A stretch of 27,151 nt of DNA, from the IMG/VR virus record IMGVR_UViG_3300034101_001901, positions 1 to 27,151 of that record; one strand, given 5' to 3'. Position numbers and translations under genes: made by a program. Numbering within the stretch: position 1 is the first letter of the stretch; each line of letters starts with the position of its first letter. Shown here piece after piece: positions 1-24,029 of this stretch. The notes below the pieces were generated by a model. The model was not told the origin of the DNA and did no database searches. It saw only the letters and a list, made by a program, of their open reading frames with translations. This stretch comes from a virus.

Positions 1-2235
1 CCTAATAAACTACTTATTCCAGCTGGAAACTGGAACTTAGAGACTTATTTTAGCGCATCAAGTAGTGGAGGAACGCCGTCCTTTTATGTTGAGCTTTATA
101 AGTACAACGGCACAACATTTACTTTAATTGCAACAAGTAGCTCGGCTCCTGAATTAATAGCTTTTGGAACTAACCTAAACCCATATTTCAGCACATTAGC
201 GGTGCCTGAAACAATTCTAACTTTAACAGATAGGTTGGCGTTGAGGTACTACGTTAACACCTCAGGCCGCACAATTACGTTGCATACTGAAAACAACCAT
301 TTATGCCAAGTTATAACCACGTTTACAACTGGTTTAACGGCTTTAAACGGATTGACTAGCCAAGTCCAATTCTTTGCGGTTGGGACTAGCGGAACAGATT
401 TTGCAATTTCTAGCGCAACGGATACCCATACGTTTAATCTACCAACGGCAAGCGCGACAAATAGAGGCGCTTTAAGTTCTGCGGATTGGACGACTTTTAA
501 TAACAAAACTTCCAACCTTGGAACGGTTACCTCGGTCGGCTTATCCTCGGCGACTAGCGGCGTTACTATAGGCTCAACTCCAATAACAACAAGCGGAACT
601 ATTACCTTAGCAATTGCAACGGCTAGCGGCTCGCAAAATGGCTTGTTATCTAGTACCGATTGGACAACCTTTAACTCTAAGCAGAACGCTTTGACCAATC
701 CTGTAACAGGAACTGGTGTAAACGGCCAAGTTGCTTATTGGAACGGCACCAACTCAATTACAAGTGATTCAGATTTATTTTTTGACGGAAGTGATTTATC
801 TGTCGGTGGCAATATTACTTTAACGAATGGTGCAAACAGGTATTTGAGAATTGGCTCTTCAACTGTTTATTATTACGATTTACAAACTGTTGGAGATGAC
901 TTTCAAATTAGGGAAGCTGGAACAACGCCAAGATTGACTATTAAATATCCAAACGGAAACGTATTAATTAACACAACCACAGATGCTGGCTTTAAGCTAG
1001 ACGTTAACGGAACTGGGCGGTTTACAAGTAGTGTAATAGCTAATGGTTTAAACGCTTTGGGTTCAACTTTAAATAATGGTAATGCTTTTAGATTTTATAG
1101 GGCAGGCCTTGTTGAAATGGCTTATATTGGATGGTCAAATGAAAACGCAAATAACTCGACTTGGCTTTTTAAATCTAGTAATGGAAACCCAATTGCATTT
1201 AGTGCGGATGGGACTAATCAAAATGTATTTATAAGCTCAGGCGGCAACGTTGGGATTGGTCACATTAATCCAATTGCACCTTTGCAAGTTACAGGACAAA
1301 GTGCAAGTCCAAATAATGGGTTTTTCCTTAGTACTAATTCTTTTACTTTATCATCTAGCGGCTCATTGCTTAGAATGGGACACGTTGCGTCTTCAGGTAA
1401 TACTACTGCAATTATTCAAAATCTAAGCGTTGGAGGCACAACGGCTGCTAACATTGCATTTCCTGACGGCAACGTGCTGATTGGAACGACAACGGATATT
1501 GGATTAAGGTTGCAAGTTAGTGGGGATATTTACGCAAGTAATGAAATGTATTTGGACAATGGTAAATATTTGCGCTTTAAACGTTCAAGTGGTGGCTTGT
1601 ATATACAAACTTTAGGAATTGATTCGGGTACGGACAACGTTAGATTGTTAACAACTGGAGATTTAAACATTGTTAACGGCTCTTTGACTAATTTAATGAC
1701 TGTTAAAAACGGCGGCAACGTTGGGATTGGGGTAAATAATCCAACAAAAAAATTAGAAGTTGCCGCATCTGTATCTGGACAAGTTGTTAATATTTCAAAT
1801 GAAAGAAATAATTCATCTGGAGATTATGCAATTGTATCTTTATTAGGTTCAAATTGTAGTAATTTAAATAGTTACCATTATATAGCATCAACAGGAGGTG
1901 CAGATAAATTTTATATCTATGGAAATGGGGTTTATGCAACTGTATCAGACATAAGGCTAAAGAAAAATATTGAAAGCGTAACAGATAAGTTTTTGCAAAA
2001 AGTAATGGATTTAAATGTAGTTAACTATAATTGGAATGAGCAACAAGATGGCGATAAAAAAGAGTTTGGATTAATTGCACAAGAGGTTGAAAAAAGTTTT
2101 CCATTTATTGTAAACGAAAATAGACCAAACCAAAAAGGCCAAATATTTAAAAACATTTCGGTAAGCGTTTTGCCTTATATTTTAATAAAAGCAATTCAAG
2201 AGTTAAAACAAGAAATCGACACTTTAAAAAACTAA
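1..2235 (+). CDS. Phage tail fibre / receptor-binding protein with C-terminal S74 chaperone domain (5' truncated)
   Basis: The frame is open from base 1, so the gene starts outside the window; the GTG at 202 is only an internal codon. The 744 visible residues are rich in Gly, Ser, Thr and Asn. They carry repeated fibre motifs: GALSSADWTTFN and GLLSSTDWTTFN, then several blocks of the type GNVLIxTTTD...L.V.G and GGNVGIG..NP. Residues about 647-744 form an intramolecular chaperone of the peptidase S74 family. The SDIRLKKNI motif contains the presumed autocleavage serine, Ser649 in this numbering. A short coiled-coil (LIKAIQELKQEI) ends the protein. In this family the domain trims itself after helping a beta-helical trimer fold. 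Likely role: host-surface recognition at the tail tip. Confidence 0.9.
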   Translation, partial: PNKLLIPAGNWNLETYFSASSSGGTPSFYVELYKYNGTTFTLIATSSSAPELIAFGTNLNPYFSTLAVPETILTLTDRLALRYYVNTSGRTITLHTENNHLCQVITTFTTGLTALNGLTSQVQFFAVGTSGTDFAISSATDTHTFNLPTASATNRGALSSADWTTFNNKTSNLGTVTSVGLSSATSGVTIGSTPITTSGTITLAIATASGSQNGLLSSTDWTTFNSKQNALTNPVTGTGVNGQVAYWNGTNSITSDSDLFFDGSDLSVGGNITLTNGANRYLRIGSSTVYYYDLQTVGDDFQIREAGTTPRLTIKYPNGNVLINTTTDAGFKLDVNGTGRFTSSVIANGLNALGSTLNNGNAFRFYRAGLVEMAYIGWSNENANNSTWLFKSSNGNPIAFSADGTNQNVFISSGGNVGIGHINPIAPLQVTGQSASPNNGFFLSTNSFTLSSSGSLLRMGHVASSGNTTAIIQNLSVGGTTAANIAFPDGNVLIGTTTDIGLRLQVSGDIYASNEMYLDNGKYLRFKRSSGGLYIQTLGIDSGTDNVRLLTTGDLNIVNGSLTNLMTVKNGGNVGIGVNNPTKKLEVAASVSGQVVNISNERNNSSGDYAIVSLLGSNCSNLNSYHYIASTGGADKFYIYGNGVYATVSDIRLKKNIESVTDKFLQKVMDLNVVNYNWNEQQDGDKKEFGLIAQEVEKSFPFIVNENRPNQKGQIFKNISVSVLPYILIKAIQELKQEIDTLKN

Positions 2236-2239
2236 AAAT

Positions 2240-2521
2240 ATGAAACCAATCGAACCAGTAACAATTTGGAAAAACGGCGAAAGCCAAGAGGCTAACTTAT
2301 TAAACGCCTACATTATTAACGACAACCTGCAATCGTCTTGCTCTTTTTACTATTCGCTTTGTGCAAGTGGCGAAGGAACAGAGGCAATGCCTTTGGTAAT
2401 TGGTCAAACGCTTGCGGAGGGTAACATTACAATGGATGGAGAAAATTATTTGGCTTGGGACGGCGACAACGATTATGCGTTTACCTATATTGCCGAAAAA
2501 TTAAACCTTACACTTATATGA
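2240..2521 (+). CDS. Small fibre-associated protein of unknown function
   Basis: 93 residues beginning MKPIEPVTIWKNGESQEAN, four bases after the fibre stop. The protein is acidic, with no signal peptide or membrane segment, and contains a WDGDNDYAF stretch. Short proteins with this kind of start commonly follow tail-fibre genes in Bacteroidota phages. A fibre accessory or assembly role is inferred from position only. The stop overlaps the next start (ATGA), which indicates translational coupling. Confidence 0.75.
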   Translation: MKPIEPVTIWKNGESQEANLLNAYIINDNLQSSCSFYYSLCASGEGTEAMPLVIGQTLAEGNITMDGENYLAWDGDNDYAFTYIAEKLNLTLI

Positions 2522-2805
2522 TTGTAAATCTAGCAATTGCCTTAACTGATATCGAAGGCAACAAAATCACAAGCGAAAACGGCGAGTTTATGTACTTGTC
2601 TAAGATGGTCGGAAACGCTTTGTTTTCAGCTGAAGAGAAAGAAGACCCGATAAGACTTTACGAGCTGGCTAAGAAAATTTACTATTCCGAGGGAGACATT
2701 GAACTAAGCAAATCGGACGCGGATTTAGTAAAGGAAAAGGTCAAGGCTAAAGGCTTTACTGTGCTTGTTTTAGGGCCGCTTTACGAGGCTTTAAAAGAAA
2801 AGTAA
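2518..2805 (+). CDS. Small protein of unknown function, end of tail-fibre operon
   Basis: 95 residues, mostly alpha-helical and charged, rich in Lys and Glu. I chose the ATG at 2518 because it overlaps the upstream TGA as ATGA and gives a protein beginning MIVNLAIALTDIEGN. The longer reading from 2455 only repeats the upstream gene out of frame. No catalytic motif is visible. It is the last gene before the tRNA-like element and a strong terminator, so it closes the fibre transcription unit. Confidence 0.75.
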   Translation: MIVNLAIALTDIEGNKITSENGEFMYLSKMVGNALFSAEEKEDPIRLYELAKKIYYSEGDIELSKSDADLVKEKVKAKGFTVLVLGPLYEALKEK

Positions 2806-2814
2806 TGGTAACAA

Positions 2815-2913
2815 AGTTAGGTGGCGGAATTGGTAGACGCTAAGTGTCGGTTAGAAGGGTACATAATACCGCACAACAAACCCTTCATACAGGTTCAAAT
2901 CCTGTCCTGACTA
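2815..2913 (+). tRNA. tRNA-Leu-like element with an aberrant central domain
   Basis: A 7-bp acceptor stem pairs 2815-2821 with 2906-2912, including one G-U pair. The discriminator A is 2913 and no CCA is encoded. The D arm (GCG/CGC at 2824-2826 and 2838-2840, loop GGAATTGGTAGA-like) has the class II leucine/serine look. The T arm is perfect: ACAGG (2889-2893), loop TTCAAAT, CCTGT (2901-2905). The 48 bases between D and T arms form no normal anticodon arm. They can instead form an H-type pseudoknot (2844-2851 with 2868-2874; 2854-2859 with 2881-2886). A strained alternative puts UAG (Leu) at 2852-2854 with a weak stem. It may be a degenerate tRNA-Leu or a tRNA-like RNA. Confidence 0.6.
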
Positions 2914-4208: not shown

Positions 4209-4586
4209 ATGAAACTTTCTACAAACTTTAGTCTAGATGAATTTGCCTCAGCTGATGGAAAGGCTCCTACTAATGATGTGCTTAAAAACCTAACAGAGTT
4301 AGCTAAGAATTTGGAGGTACTACGTAAGAATTTAGGTCAGCCAATACGTATTACTTCAGGGTTTAGAAGCAAAGAACACAATGCAAAAATTGGAGGCGCT
4401 TTAAATAGCTTTCATGTCTTAGGGATGGCTGCCGACATTCAGGTTGCAAAAATGAAACCAGAGAATGTAGCTAAGGCAATCGAGTTGTTGATTAAAGATG
4501 GCAAAATGAAAGAGGGTGGATTGGGAATTTACAAGACTTGGATTCATTACGATATTAGAGGAACTAAAGCACGCTGGAAAATATGA
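4209..4586 (+). CDS. Peptidase M15-type endolysin (D-Ala/L-Ala-D-Glu peptidase-like)
   Basis: 125 residues forming a compact peptidase M15 domain with its zinc ligands: SFHVLGMAADIQV supplies His69 and Asp76, and WIHYDIRG supplies His113. The ITSGFRSKEHNAKIGG segment is typical of the family. These enzymes cut the peptide part of peptidoglycan. There is no signal peptide, so release probably depends on the holin candidates upstream. A TATAATTTG sequence at 4187-4195 resembles the plus-strand promoter core. The stop overlaps the next gene (ATGA). Confidence 0.88.
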   Translation: MKLSTNFSLDEFASADGKAPTNDVLKNLTELAKNLEVLRKNLGQPIRITSGFRSKEHNAKIGGALNSFHVLGMAADIQVAKMKPENVAKAIELLIKDGKMKEGGLGIYKTWIHYDIRGTKARWKI

Positions 4587-5903: not shown

Positions 5904-6170
5904 CTACTTTACATTATCGCTGATTTTCAGCAGGACAAGGTAACCAATTAAGTCATTTACCACATCCTCATCATCTTTCTCTAAGCTTCCGTTTTTAATT
6001 CTCTTTAGCTTATCATCAATTCGGATCAGTAGTCCTTCTTTTGCGGACAACTGACTAAACACGCCAAGAGGCTCTAATGCAGAGTTTCCGTACTTACGAT
6101 TTTTGTCGATAAGCATTTTATGAATATGCTCTAGGACTTCTTCTACTTGGATTGCAAATGGTGGTATCAT
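5904..6170 (-). CDS. Nmad1-like (DUF1599) nucleotide-modification-associated protein
   Basis: 88 residues with the pattern of the Nmad1/DUF1599 family: KNRKYGNSALEPLGVF, then a helix with RIDDKLKRIKNG, then EDVVNDLIGYLVLLKI. The all-helical fold and acidic/Arg residues recall MazG-like nucleotide binding. The family often accompanies phage DNA-base modification, and this region also encodes a cytosine methyltransferase and a PP-loop enzyme. The biochemical role is not established. It lies just downstream of the second tRNA-like element. Confidence 0.75.
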   Translation of the reverse strand: MIPPFAIQVEEVLEHIHKMLIDKNRKYGNSALEPLGVFSQLSAKEGLLIRIDDKLKRIKNGSLEKDDEDVVNDLIGYLVLLKISDNVK

Positions 6171-6184
6171 GTTTTTATATTTTG

Positions 6185-6288
6185 TAGTCAGGGCAGGCTA
6201 TGATCCTGCACGCACATCTAAGGTTATCTCAATGTGCCATTACTTTTACAAGCAGTTCCAATGTGTGTCTTCATTCCACCACCTGACT
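6185..6288 (-). ncRNA. Second tRNA-like element, same acceptor stem as the first
   Basis: Read on the minus strand it starts AGTCAGG and ends CCTGACT plus discriminator A: a perfect 7-bp acceptor stem (6282-6288 with 6186-6192). Its nine 3' bases (CCTGACTAC) match the first element. A D arm follows (GTG/CAC, loop GAATGAAGA, lacking the usual GG). The T arm has a 5-bp stem, GCAGG/CCTGC, but an odd loop ATCATAG. The 55 bases between allow a 5-bp hairpin with a GUAA tetraloop (TGCTT/AAGTA) and a 6-bp variable-arm-like stem GCACAT/ATGTGC. No 7-base anticodon loop is apparent. It lies in a 136-base gap between two minus-strand genes. Confidence 0.5.
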
Positions 6289-22665: not shown

Positions 22666-23924
22666 CAATCGATGCCGTTAAATCGGTAATCGCAGAAGCT
22701 GGCGAGGCTCTTAAGGCTAAAGCAAGCAATGCAGAAGTGAAAGCTAACGAAGCTTTCGAAAAGGCTGAAAGCCTATTGAAGTCTTTGAATGGTGTAGTAA
22801 CCAAAGAAGAGGCAGCAGAAATGCAAAAGCAACTTGATAAGTTGGACATTGCAATGCAAAAGAATGCAGTTGACAAAGAAGTAAATGCTGAAGATTTCAA
22901 AACCGCATTTATGAAGGCTTACGAGCCAGTAAGAGCAGAAATCGAAAGATTGAAGTCTGAGCCTAACGCTCGTCTTAAGGCTCCTTTGGTATTCGAAATC
23001 AACGAGAAGGCAGTTGGAACTATTACTCTAGCTTCTACAATCGCTAACGAAGCTTCTTCTGGACAAGTAACTATTTCTGAGTTTACTGGTGTTGTTTCTC
23101 CTATCCGTCAGCGTTTGTTGACTTACCTTGCTAATGCAAGCGTTGGAGCAATCGGAACTCAGTACGCAGTATGGGTAGAAGAATACGATCAGGAGGGAAC
23201 TCCAGTAATGATTGGTGAAGGTGTTGAGAAGACTCAAATCGATGTTCAGTACAAAGAGCAGAGAGCTAAAGTTGAGAAGATTGGTGTTCACATGAAGGTT
23301 TCTATGGAAATGTTGGAAGATGCCGCTTACTTGGCTTCTTACATCCAATCCAATGGTGTTAAGCGTGTTGAGACTGTAATCGAGAACCAATTGTTTACTG
23401 GTAACGGTACATCTCCTCAGCTTGCTGGTTTGCTTTCTAAGTCTACCACTTTCACTGGTGGATCAATGGCTGGTGGTGTTGAGGCTGCTACTAACTGGGA
23501 TGTTATCCACGGAATCATCGCTCAAGTAAGAGCTGCAAACGGAACTGCAACAGGCGTATTCGTTGAGACTGGACAGTATCACTTGATGCTTTCTGAGAAG
23601 GATGCTGATAAGCAGTATATCTTGCCAGCTGGCGTTACTTTCAACGCACAAGGTGGAATTTCTGCTTGGGGTGTAAACATTATCCCAACCAACGCTTTGA
23701 CCGGAACAGCTGCACAATTCGTAGGTGGTGACCTTTCTGTTATCAACGTACGTTTGAGAAGCGGTTTGCAAGTAGCTATCGGAGAGTCTGGCGATGACTT
23801 CATCGACAACTTGAAGACTGTAAGAATCGAGCAGCGTTTGGTGCAGTTCATCTCTGCTAACGATACTCCGGTATTGGTTAAGGGTGTATTCTCAACTGCT
23901 AAGGCTCTTCTTGAGACTACCTAA
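22653..23924 (+). CDS. HK97-family major capsid protein
   Basis: 423 residues. The first ~109 are a charged helical scaffold-like segment (KAKASNAEVKANEAFEKAES...). The shell domain follows: SEFTGVVSPIRQRLLTYL, KVSMEMLEDAAYLASYIQSN, LFTGNGTSPQLAGLL, and RIEQRLVQFISANDTPVLVKG near the end. Cleavage near Lys109-Ala110 by the protease is likely by analogy with HK97. Codon use differs from the neighbours (GCT, AAC, ATC and TCT heavy), fitting very high expression. A terminator follows. Confidence 0.93.
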   Translation: MENLTIDAVKSVIAEAGEALKAKASNAEVKANEAFEKAESLLKSLNGVVTKEEAAEMQKQLDKLDIAMQKNAVDKEVNAEDFKTAFMKAYEPVRAEIERLKSEPNARLKAPLVFEINEKAVGTITLASTIANEASSGQVTISEFTGVVSPIRQRLLTYLANASVGAIGTQYAVWVEEYDQEGTPVMIGEGVEKTQIDVQYKEQRAKVEKIGVHMKVSMEMLEDAAYLASYIQSNGVKRVETVIENQLFTGNGTSPQLAGLLSKSTTFTGGSMAGGVEAATNWDVIHGIIAQVRAANGTATGVFVETGQYHLMLSEKDADKQYILPAGVTFNAQGGISAWGVNIIPTNALTGTAAQFVGGDLSVINVRLRSGLQVAIGESGDDFIDNLKTVRIEQRLVQFISANDTPVLVKGVFSTAKALLETT

Positions 23925-23953
23925 TATTTAGTTTGTGTTTTGTGTTTAGTGTT

Positions 23954-23984
23954 AAAAGGGCGGGAAATTTTCCCGCCTTTTTTT
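23954..23984 (+). terminator. Strong rho-independent terminator after the capsid gene
   Basis: A stem of 11 pairs including one G-U (23955-23965 with 23971-23981; core GCGGGA/TCCCGC) with a 5-base loop, followed by T7. It would limit read-through from capsid into the following genes. Confidence 0.88.
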
Positions 23985-24029
23985 GTTTAACGAGTTCAAA
24001 ATCATTTACTTTAAAATAAATTATAAGAT

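Follow-up and report, generated by a model that had tools for sequence, protein, structure and literature searches.

Phage-encoded, tRNA-Leu-like RNAs with exchangeable inserts in place of the anticodon arm

tmRNA, about 350 nt long and alanine-type, places tRNA-like ends around a foreign, pseudoknotted middle. Viruses also imitate tRNA: plant RNA viruses carry tRNA-like structures and herpesviruses produce tRNA-miRNA transcripts, in which the tRNA portion is a handle for processing of the cargo. T4-type phages carry PeSLs, mobile regulatory cassettes that combine a promoter with a stem-loop and lie between genes. Viral tRNA mimicry has been reviewed (PMC5723415), and irregular tRNAs are known from the allo-tRNAs and irregular tRNA polycistrons (Mukai 2017, reviewed in PMC7609411). 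Septu and retron-Eco7 cut a class-II tRNA in its variable loop; a phage tRNA-Tyr counters them, and it has been discussed as either a decoy or a supplement (PMC13096335). Leucylation in E. coli needs neither the anticodon nor the variable arm, whereas A73, A15-U48 and G18G19 do matter for it (PMC9976931).

The DNA analyzed here (the window) is a 27,151-nt stretch of a viral record, IMG/VR IMGVR_UViG_3300034101_001901, and it carries two tRNA-like elements, A (2815–2913, plus strand) and B (6185–6288, minus strand), which belong to a phage RNA family that resembles several of these systems in part. Like canonical tRNAs, members form a cloverleaf with a 7-bp acceptor, a D-arm and a 5-bp T-arm, but they have no 7-nt decoding loop, in place of which B has a loop of 16–18 nt and A a pseudoknot-like insert. 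With tRNA-Leu they share the D-arm GCGGAAUUGGUAGACGC, the T-arm, U8, A14, A15-U48, A73, mostly G18G19 and, in family B, a helix resembling the variable arm; unlike tRNA-Leu, they carry an insert in place of the anticodon arm, and the acceptor AGUCAGG (A1-U72) is common to otherwise unrelated copies. As in tmRNA, tRNA-like ends surround a foreign middle, but members measure about 100 nt, are leucine-type and have U-A rather than G3-U70 at pair 3-70 in 193 of 195 tRNA-like frames; the Rfam tmRNA model found no match in the window. In contrast to the plant-virus and herpesvirus mimics, the family occurs in DNA phages of bacteria, and its cargo, which differs from copy to copy, is enclosed by the cloverleaf. 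PeSLs are likewise small intergenic cassettes exchanged between phage loci, but the family is a tRNA-shaped RNA. By eye, it also differs from Y RNA (YrlA), where the Rsr/Ro60-binding stem is terminal, whereas here the acceptor stem is. Allo-tRNAs, too, are irregular class-II tRNA-like genes, clustered, metagenomic and in some cases unusable in translation, but theirs are 8/4 or 9/3 (12-bp) acceptor domains, serine identity and anticodons (PMC7609411), whereas the phage family combines a 7-bp acceptor and 5-bp T-stem with a leucine-type core and no anticodon. The phage tRNAs active against Septu and retron-Eco7 are also phage-encoded, class-II and tRNA-shaped, but those are real tRNA-Tyr (PMC13096335), and any comparable activity of the family members is putative.

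Element B reads, on the minus strand, AGTCAGG TG GTG GAATGAAGA CAC A CATT GGAACTGCTTGTAAAAGT AATG in its 5′ half and, after AATG, GCACAT TGAGATAACCTTAG ATGTGC GT GCAGG ATCATAG CCTGC CCTGACT A in its 3′ half. The acceptor strands AGTCAGG (6282–6288) and CCTGACT (6186–6192) pair with each other and are followed by the discriminator A at 6185, in agreement with the position and strand given by an earlier, sequence-only reading. That reading had also described a D-stem GTG/CAC, a T-stem GCAGG/CCTGC, a missing D-loop GG and a T-loop ATCATAG, all of which we confirmed: the D-arm GTGGAATGAAGACAC (6265–6279, minus strand) lacks G18G19, although A73, A15 and U48 are present, and the T-arm GCAGG-ATCATAG-CCTGC occupies 6193–6209 (minus strand). 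The GUAA-capped hairpin that it saw in place of the anticodon arm exists, but merely as part of a larger arm (6238–6263, minus strand), in which a 4-bp stem, CATT/AATG, closes a conserved loop region, GGAACTGCTTGTAAAAGT. A separate variable arm that it did not name, GCACAT...ATGTGC, follows as the hairpin GCACATTGAGATAACCTTAGATGTGC (6212–6237, minus strand). The loop at the anticodon position (GAACUGCUUGUAAAAGU) is a conserved 16–18 nt rather than 7 nt, and an element folded in this way cannot decode. Predicted folding energy alone sets the element apart only moderately (−32 to −33 kcal/mol, z about −2.7, equaled by 2–3 of 200 shuffles). ARAGORN called no tRNA in the window, and the Rfam tRNA model (RF00005) did not detect element B at E ≤ 5.

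We then used the loop of element B, GARCTGCTTGTMAAAGT, as the key for a scan and extracted full members of its family. The scan returned about 39 distinct matches in which the correct stem closes the loop, and with one exception these lie inside a tRNA-like frame; the other matches appeared to be chance or coding sequence. Covariation was computed on 29 of the 33 distinct full members. Across these 29 relatives, the six helices (28 pairs) of the cloverleaf are paired in 99.1% of 812 cells, and double changes occur in 12 of the 28 pairs and in 57 cells, against 5.5 and 15.9 in shuffles, none of 500 of which scored as high; slid alignments were 28–45% paired, with at most three double-change pairs. 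The changes reach every stem. Acceptor pair 6 switches from G-C to U-A, giving AGTCATG/CATGACT; D-stem pair 11-25 alternates between U-A and C-G with eight double changes; the stem at the anticodon position shows T-A/C-G double changes in 13 of the 29 (CATT/AATG against CATC/GATG); and double changes affect 5 of 6 pairs in the variable arm and 3 of 5 in the T-arm. Four additional members (L056, L114, L334 and L349) keep the same loop above a different stem, ACCC/GGGT, with a variable arm AATTAG...CTAATT. The relatives have T-loops TTCAAAT or TTCGAAT, and one, L148, retains TTGGTAGACGC in its D-arm. Invariance of the loop partly reflects the search, which was keyed on the loop; among 17 members of the same insert cluster found without that key, the loop is kept except for GAGCTGCTTGTCAAAAGT in L055 and L086. 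Together, these comparisons are decisive, as sequence evidence, for a class-II (leucine-type) tRNA cloverleaf in element B, and they strongly support the earlier suggestion of a tRNA-like element that had not arisen by simple decay, as covariation extends to the acceptor, D, anticodon-position, variable and T stems alike.

Element A is the only one of the two elements that the Rfam tRNA model detects (36 bits, gathering score 29). It has a D-arm of standard tRNA-Leu form, GCGGAATTGGTAGACGC (2824–2840), and a T-arm ACAGG-TTCAAAT-CCTGT joined to the 3′ acceptor strand CCTGACT (2889–2912), all on the plus strand, and it possesses A73, A15-U48 and G18G19. Its insert (2845–2886, plus strand) is predicted on energy alone to form an H-type pseudoknot, in which the helix 2845–2851/2868–2875 is crossed by 2854–2860/2880–2886, with a helix energy of −21.1 against −2.4 ± 5.2 in shuffles. 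Its position is in a 3′ UTR, with a stop codon before it and an intrinsic terminator behind it. Most of the relatives shown have an empty site here, made up of the stop codon, about 20–30 nt and the terminator. L411 carries the same element there, and L406, L407, L433, L436 and L467 carry another structured insert of about 70 nt (tagagagaaccgttagtttgcggatg...catactcta), following a gene homologous to window 2455–2805.

Searching viral contigs with a 16-base piece of the frame matched at least 120 stretches. Taking as a frame the acceptor AGTCAGG/CCTGACT, a tRNA-Leu D-arm and a canonical T-arm, a fuzzy scan of the fetched loci found 198 frames in 132 loci, counts that do not represent independent events, since most of those given here depend on the motif searched for and many of the contigs are relatives of one another. 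A strict scan for any tRNA frame, with the acceptor sequence left free, gave 302 matches against 2 in shuffled sequence. Among 80 loci chosen by a neighboring gene rather than by motif, 14 of 15 strict matches had the acceptor AGTCAGG, many of them orthologous. When whole records were scanned with the 3′ half of the frame, 38 of 43 matched, with up to 11 copies each, and a reversed-pattern control matched none of the 43; among records picked by gene, 5 of 32 matched. A chance likeness between the acceptors of A and B is rejected by the free-acceptor scan, the gene-chosen loci and the whole-record scan alike. The sequence-only reading had counted two copies and had named the lack of a third in any related genome as evidence against itself; elements A and B are instead two among hundreds, exceeding that mark by two orders of magnitude. 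Copies also share a direction: in 22 records with at least two copies, 101 of 104 lie on the majority strand, and in 20 of the 22 records every copy is on the same strand.

The family is large and appears to be undescribed. Distant blastn among named phages found no relatives of A or B, a synthetic consensus frame retrieved ordinary tRNA pieces alone from the same phages, and the family was found neither in Rfam, beyond the generic tRNA model, nor in 50,697 phage records. The open papers searched held no description of it, with the 2017 structured-RNA survey (doi 10.1093/nar/gkx699) covered through Rfam alone. In structure and shape these elements are of a kind known from viral tRNA-like RNAs and irregular tRNAs; it is for a phage tRNA chassis with interchangeable inserts that we found no description in these sources. 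ARAGORN labels some copies as tRNAs of arbitrary identity.

The constant part of the frame retains the core of a tRNA. U8 is present in 194 of 195 frames, A14 in 190, A15 in 189 and the D-loop GG in 166; the acceptor and T-stems are paired nearly throughout, T directly precedes the T-stem in 172, and the T-loop is of the UUCGAAU type in most. The tertiary 15-48 (Levitt) pair is A-U in 170 of 195 frames, and C48 accompanies G15 in 4 of 5 cases (Fisher p 7e-5). Outside the stems, A73 follows the acceptor in 172 of 198 frames and C is the next base in 187, an ending shared with most genuine tRNAs of these phages, and T precedes the acceptor at −1 in 163 of 198, against a base frequency of 0.31. 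Features of RNase P and RNase Z substrates can be recognized in sequence (a tRNA-type acceptor/T-arm stack, U at −1 and the discriminator), and the tRNA-Leu set of A73, A15-U48 and G18G19 is complete in most frames. A tRNA mimic, one of the options raised earlier, would fit this conserved core. Inserts can be housed in the D-loop as well: in L099, from position 4211 (plus strand), a long hairpin (GTTAACAACCCCG...CGGGGTTAATGTTAAC) is, by eye, inserted there ahead of TTGGTAGACGC.

What lies between the D-arm and T-arm is, when loci are compared, an exchangeable insert, which the sequence-only reading could not have seen. The inserts are about 16–160 nt long and fall into 151 sequence clusters, 128 of them singletons. 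They take the place of both the anticodon and the variable arm and are often structured; in element B the insert itself retains a class-II arrangement whose loop is fixed. Compared with shuffles the inserts fold more stably (mean z −0.77, 125 inserts, p 3e-13), and a subset gives an H-type pseudoknot signal, element A being among the strongest; as a general description of the inserts a pseudoknot was rejected, being enriched yet significant at the 5% level in only 23%. At the site of element B, relatives are empty (L125), carry the same element, or carry other inserts (L134, L138, L139 and L157), and L150 and L157 form an empty/occupied pair. The empty site in L125 reads ...agtgccgataaatagaaaaacATG, and the gene there is directly preceded by an A-rich leader similar to the one that in the window separates element B from a start codon (6171–6184, minus strand); the window gene that follows (5904–6170, minus strand) encodes 88 aa and is assigned to PHROG 1485 (function unknown). 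Insert B itself occurs in 13 distinct upstream and 10 downstream contexts. One site in empty and occupied states, and one insert in many contexts, are what a mobile cassette would display. The insert of L111 also stands alone, outside any frame, in L051, with similar modules in L002, L027 and L120 (module TGACACGCACGGCAACC...CTACCTCACTGTGCGTAGGTAA, free-standing in these four and within the frame in L111), and in L083 a different helix closes the insert of L049. Among the proteins encoded in the window are an Erf-type annealing protein (annealase) and a RecE-like exonuclease.

Comparison across the family demonstrates, at the level of sequence, RNA-level selection on a tRNA-shaped, non-decoding RNA, orientation with transcription and modular exchange, both of inserts and of entire elements, among sites and phages; processing and function we infer, the former from established tRNA biology. 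We consider it fairly probable that A and B are instances of a mobile, non-decoding tRNA-Leu chassis that is processed by the host and carries interchangeable RNA inserts as its working part. The element would be transcribed within phage operons, its 5′ end cut by host RNase P and its 3′ end by RNase Z or exonucleases, after which a host enzyme would add CCA and so stabilize the RNA, which may even be leucylated. On a pseudoknot substrate, RNase P RNA reportedly favors a U immediately 5′ of its cut (PMC12710915). Self-encoded maturation was considered and rejected: 14 phage records have no RNase Z-type domain above the cut-off and a CCA-adding-type domain only in the 270-kb G013, and maturation would thus depend on enzymes of the host. 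Many copies could be leucylated, given that E. coli LeuRS dispenses with the anticodon and variable arm. An A1-U72 acceptor is unusual for tRNA-Leu, and this, together with the absence of G18G19 and of a canonical T-loop, disfavors efficient leucylation of element B. The insert would most likely work in trans, either by engaging the tRNA-binding machinery of the host (for instance, as a decoy for tRNA-targeting defenses) or as a regulator, and inserts may be swapped when phage-encoded Erf/RecE-type proteins promote homologous recombination at the constant ends. No other site in the window is complementary to the loop of element B, and none was consistent in 12 genome assemblies, where scattered near-matches occurred in numbers similar to controls; a simple antisense role for B is therefore unsupported. 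A broader proposal, which we advance tentatively as a possibility, is that freshwater Bacteroidota phages share a fixed, host-matured tRNA-Leu chassis for unrelated small RNA modules that they trade, each module having its own host target.

One specific form of our preferred reading, on balance rather doubtful, is that the elements are decoys against tRNA-targeting host defenses, look-alikes that would soak up or resist nucleases of the anticodon or variable loop, with inserts diversifying in an arms race. The tRNA-Tyr precedent against Septu and retron-Eco7 (PMC13096335), the hypervariable inserts, the many copies, the exchange between phages and the conserved tRNA core would all suit a decoy, but many inserts are unlike an anticodon arm. 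A different role, proposed by the sequence-only reading, is RNase P/Z punctuation of transcripts, in which the two cuts would separate cistrons and leave an A-rich leader, with the insert a neutral spacer. As part of the story punctuation is possible: an ORF starts 6–36 nt downstream of 62 of 186 frames, whereas this holds for 36 of 213 genuine tRNAs and for 14.8% of positions taken at random, the spacers between frames and such ORFs are 55% A and 6% G, and frames are codirectional with operons. As the sole function it is unlikely, because element A sits in a 3′ UTR between stop codon and terminator, where cutting would free no cistron, non-coding arrays hold many of the copies, and a neutral spacer would neither fold better than shuffles nor keep the 17-nt B loop amid covarying stems.

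That the elements are degenerate or selfish remnants, broken tRNA-Leu genes spread without function by recombination through their conserved ends, would agree with the predominance of singleton insert clusters (128 of 151) and with the existence of truncated and chimeric copies (L138 and L319). This account is quite unlikely and largely contradicted, since decay would break stems that instead covary, each arm of family B and also the tertiary 15-48 pair showing compensatory changes, and it sits poorly with the conserved loop and the orientation bias. The gain and exchange of sites would also be expected of a DNA-level signal, with AGTCAGG/CCTGACT serving as an inverted repeat for recombination or insertion, but the conserved D-loop, T-loop, U8, A73 and base −1 and the two-sided pairing changes are features of RNA, and copies show a strand bias; we regard such a signal as highly improbable. 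Scarcely credible is that these are working tRNAs of odd form, still decoding with expanded anticodon loops. Ordinary tRNAs do occur among the frames that share the AGTCAGG acceptor, a few in number, such as a tRNA-Ile(GAU) that follows a B-type element in L133 and a tRNA-Lys (UUU) in L061, but element B lacks a 7-nt anticodon loop, the decoding site could not accommodate pseudoknots or inserts as long as 160 nt, and ARAGORN, as noted, calls none in the window. Separately, L319 (about 410–510, plus strand) is, by eye, a chimera that joins a B-type insert and T-arm to a new stem, GGTCAGA/TCTGACC, and has no D-arm.

The family looks like a reusable RNA chassis swapped among phages, one that is widespread and either invisible or mis-called in present annotation, and such elements probably inflate the numbers of phage tRNA genes obtained by automatic calling. 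It offers a test system for the roles of non-decoding viral tRNA look-alikes, for tRNA maturation that releases other RNAs, and for diversified phage RNA decoys against tRNA-targeting immunity. If the broader proposal holds, each plugged-in module would act on, for example, a tRNA-cutting or tRNA-sensing defense.

The host of the window phage is probably a member of the Bacteroidota. Two of the terminase matches listed share the highest identity, 38%, one in Bacteroides phage BS-TP2 and the other in an unannotated faecal record. True frames occur on MAG contigs labeled Sediminibacterium, Flavobacterium and Chitinophagaceae, and also on contigs labeled as other phyla. A bacterial origin was considered and rejected: the 16-mer gave 106 stretches in a genome collection, close to the number estimated by chance, and among the matches listed true frames were limited to L203, L205, L211, L214, L234 and L270, which are MAG contigs of mixed phyla.

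Other structured RNAs were observed in these loci. A tmRNA gene (Rfam 68.8 bits) lies on a phage contig at L088 553–939 (minus strand) and adjoins tRNA-like frames. Non-coding arrays hold a Pistol ribozyme match above the gathering score (L270 2569–2630, plus strand) and freshwater-1 RNA matches just below it (L022 4124–4186 and L270 4389–4456, plus strand). A second RNA family with constant ends and a variable middle, GTTGTTCCCTTGAGAAAGGA-[39-79 nt]-CACAGAGGACTTCTCATCCTC, often stands directly upstream of a tRNA-like frame; its sites (plus strand) are at L029 2016, L102 6391, L104 1900, L107 4583, L074 335, L099 11824 and L022 2487. A conserved hairpin with a covarying stem, TGACRGCTCG-GAAAGA-CGAGC, often lies a few bases before a tRNA or tRNA-like frame (L002, L012, L085, L089, L111, L118, L133, L138, L211 and others). 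After many frames there is an element ggctaagcgatcccacctgcctacaattgggatgtgagttgttagtaggtagcc (L124 downstream of 3907, L129, L133, L134, L145 and others), in which, by eye, ATCCCA/TGGGAT would cross CTGCCTAC/GTAGGTAG as a pseudoknot. In the window itself, a strong GC-rich hairpin with a T-run follows a structural gene at 23895–23990 (plus strand); it gives a weak L20_leader match and is most likely an intrinsic terminator.
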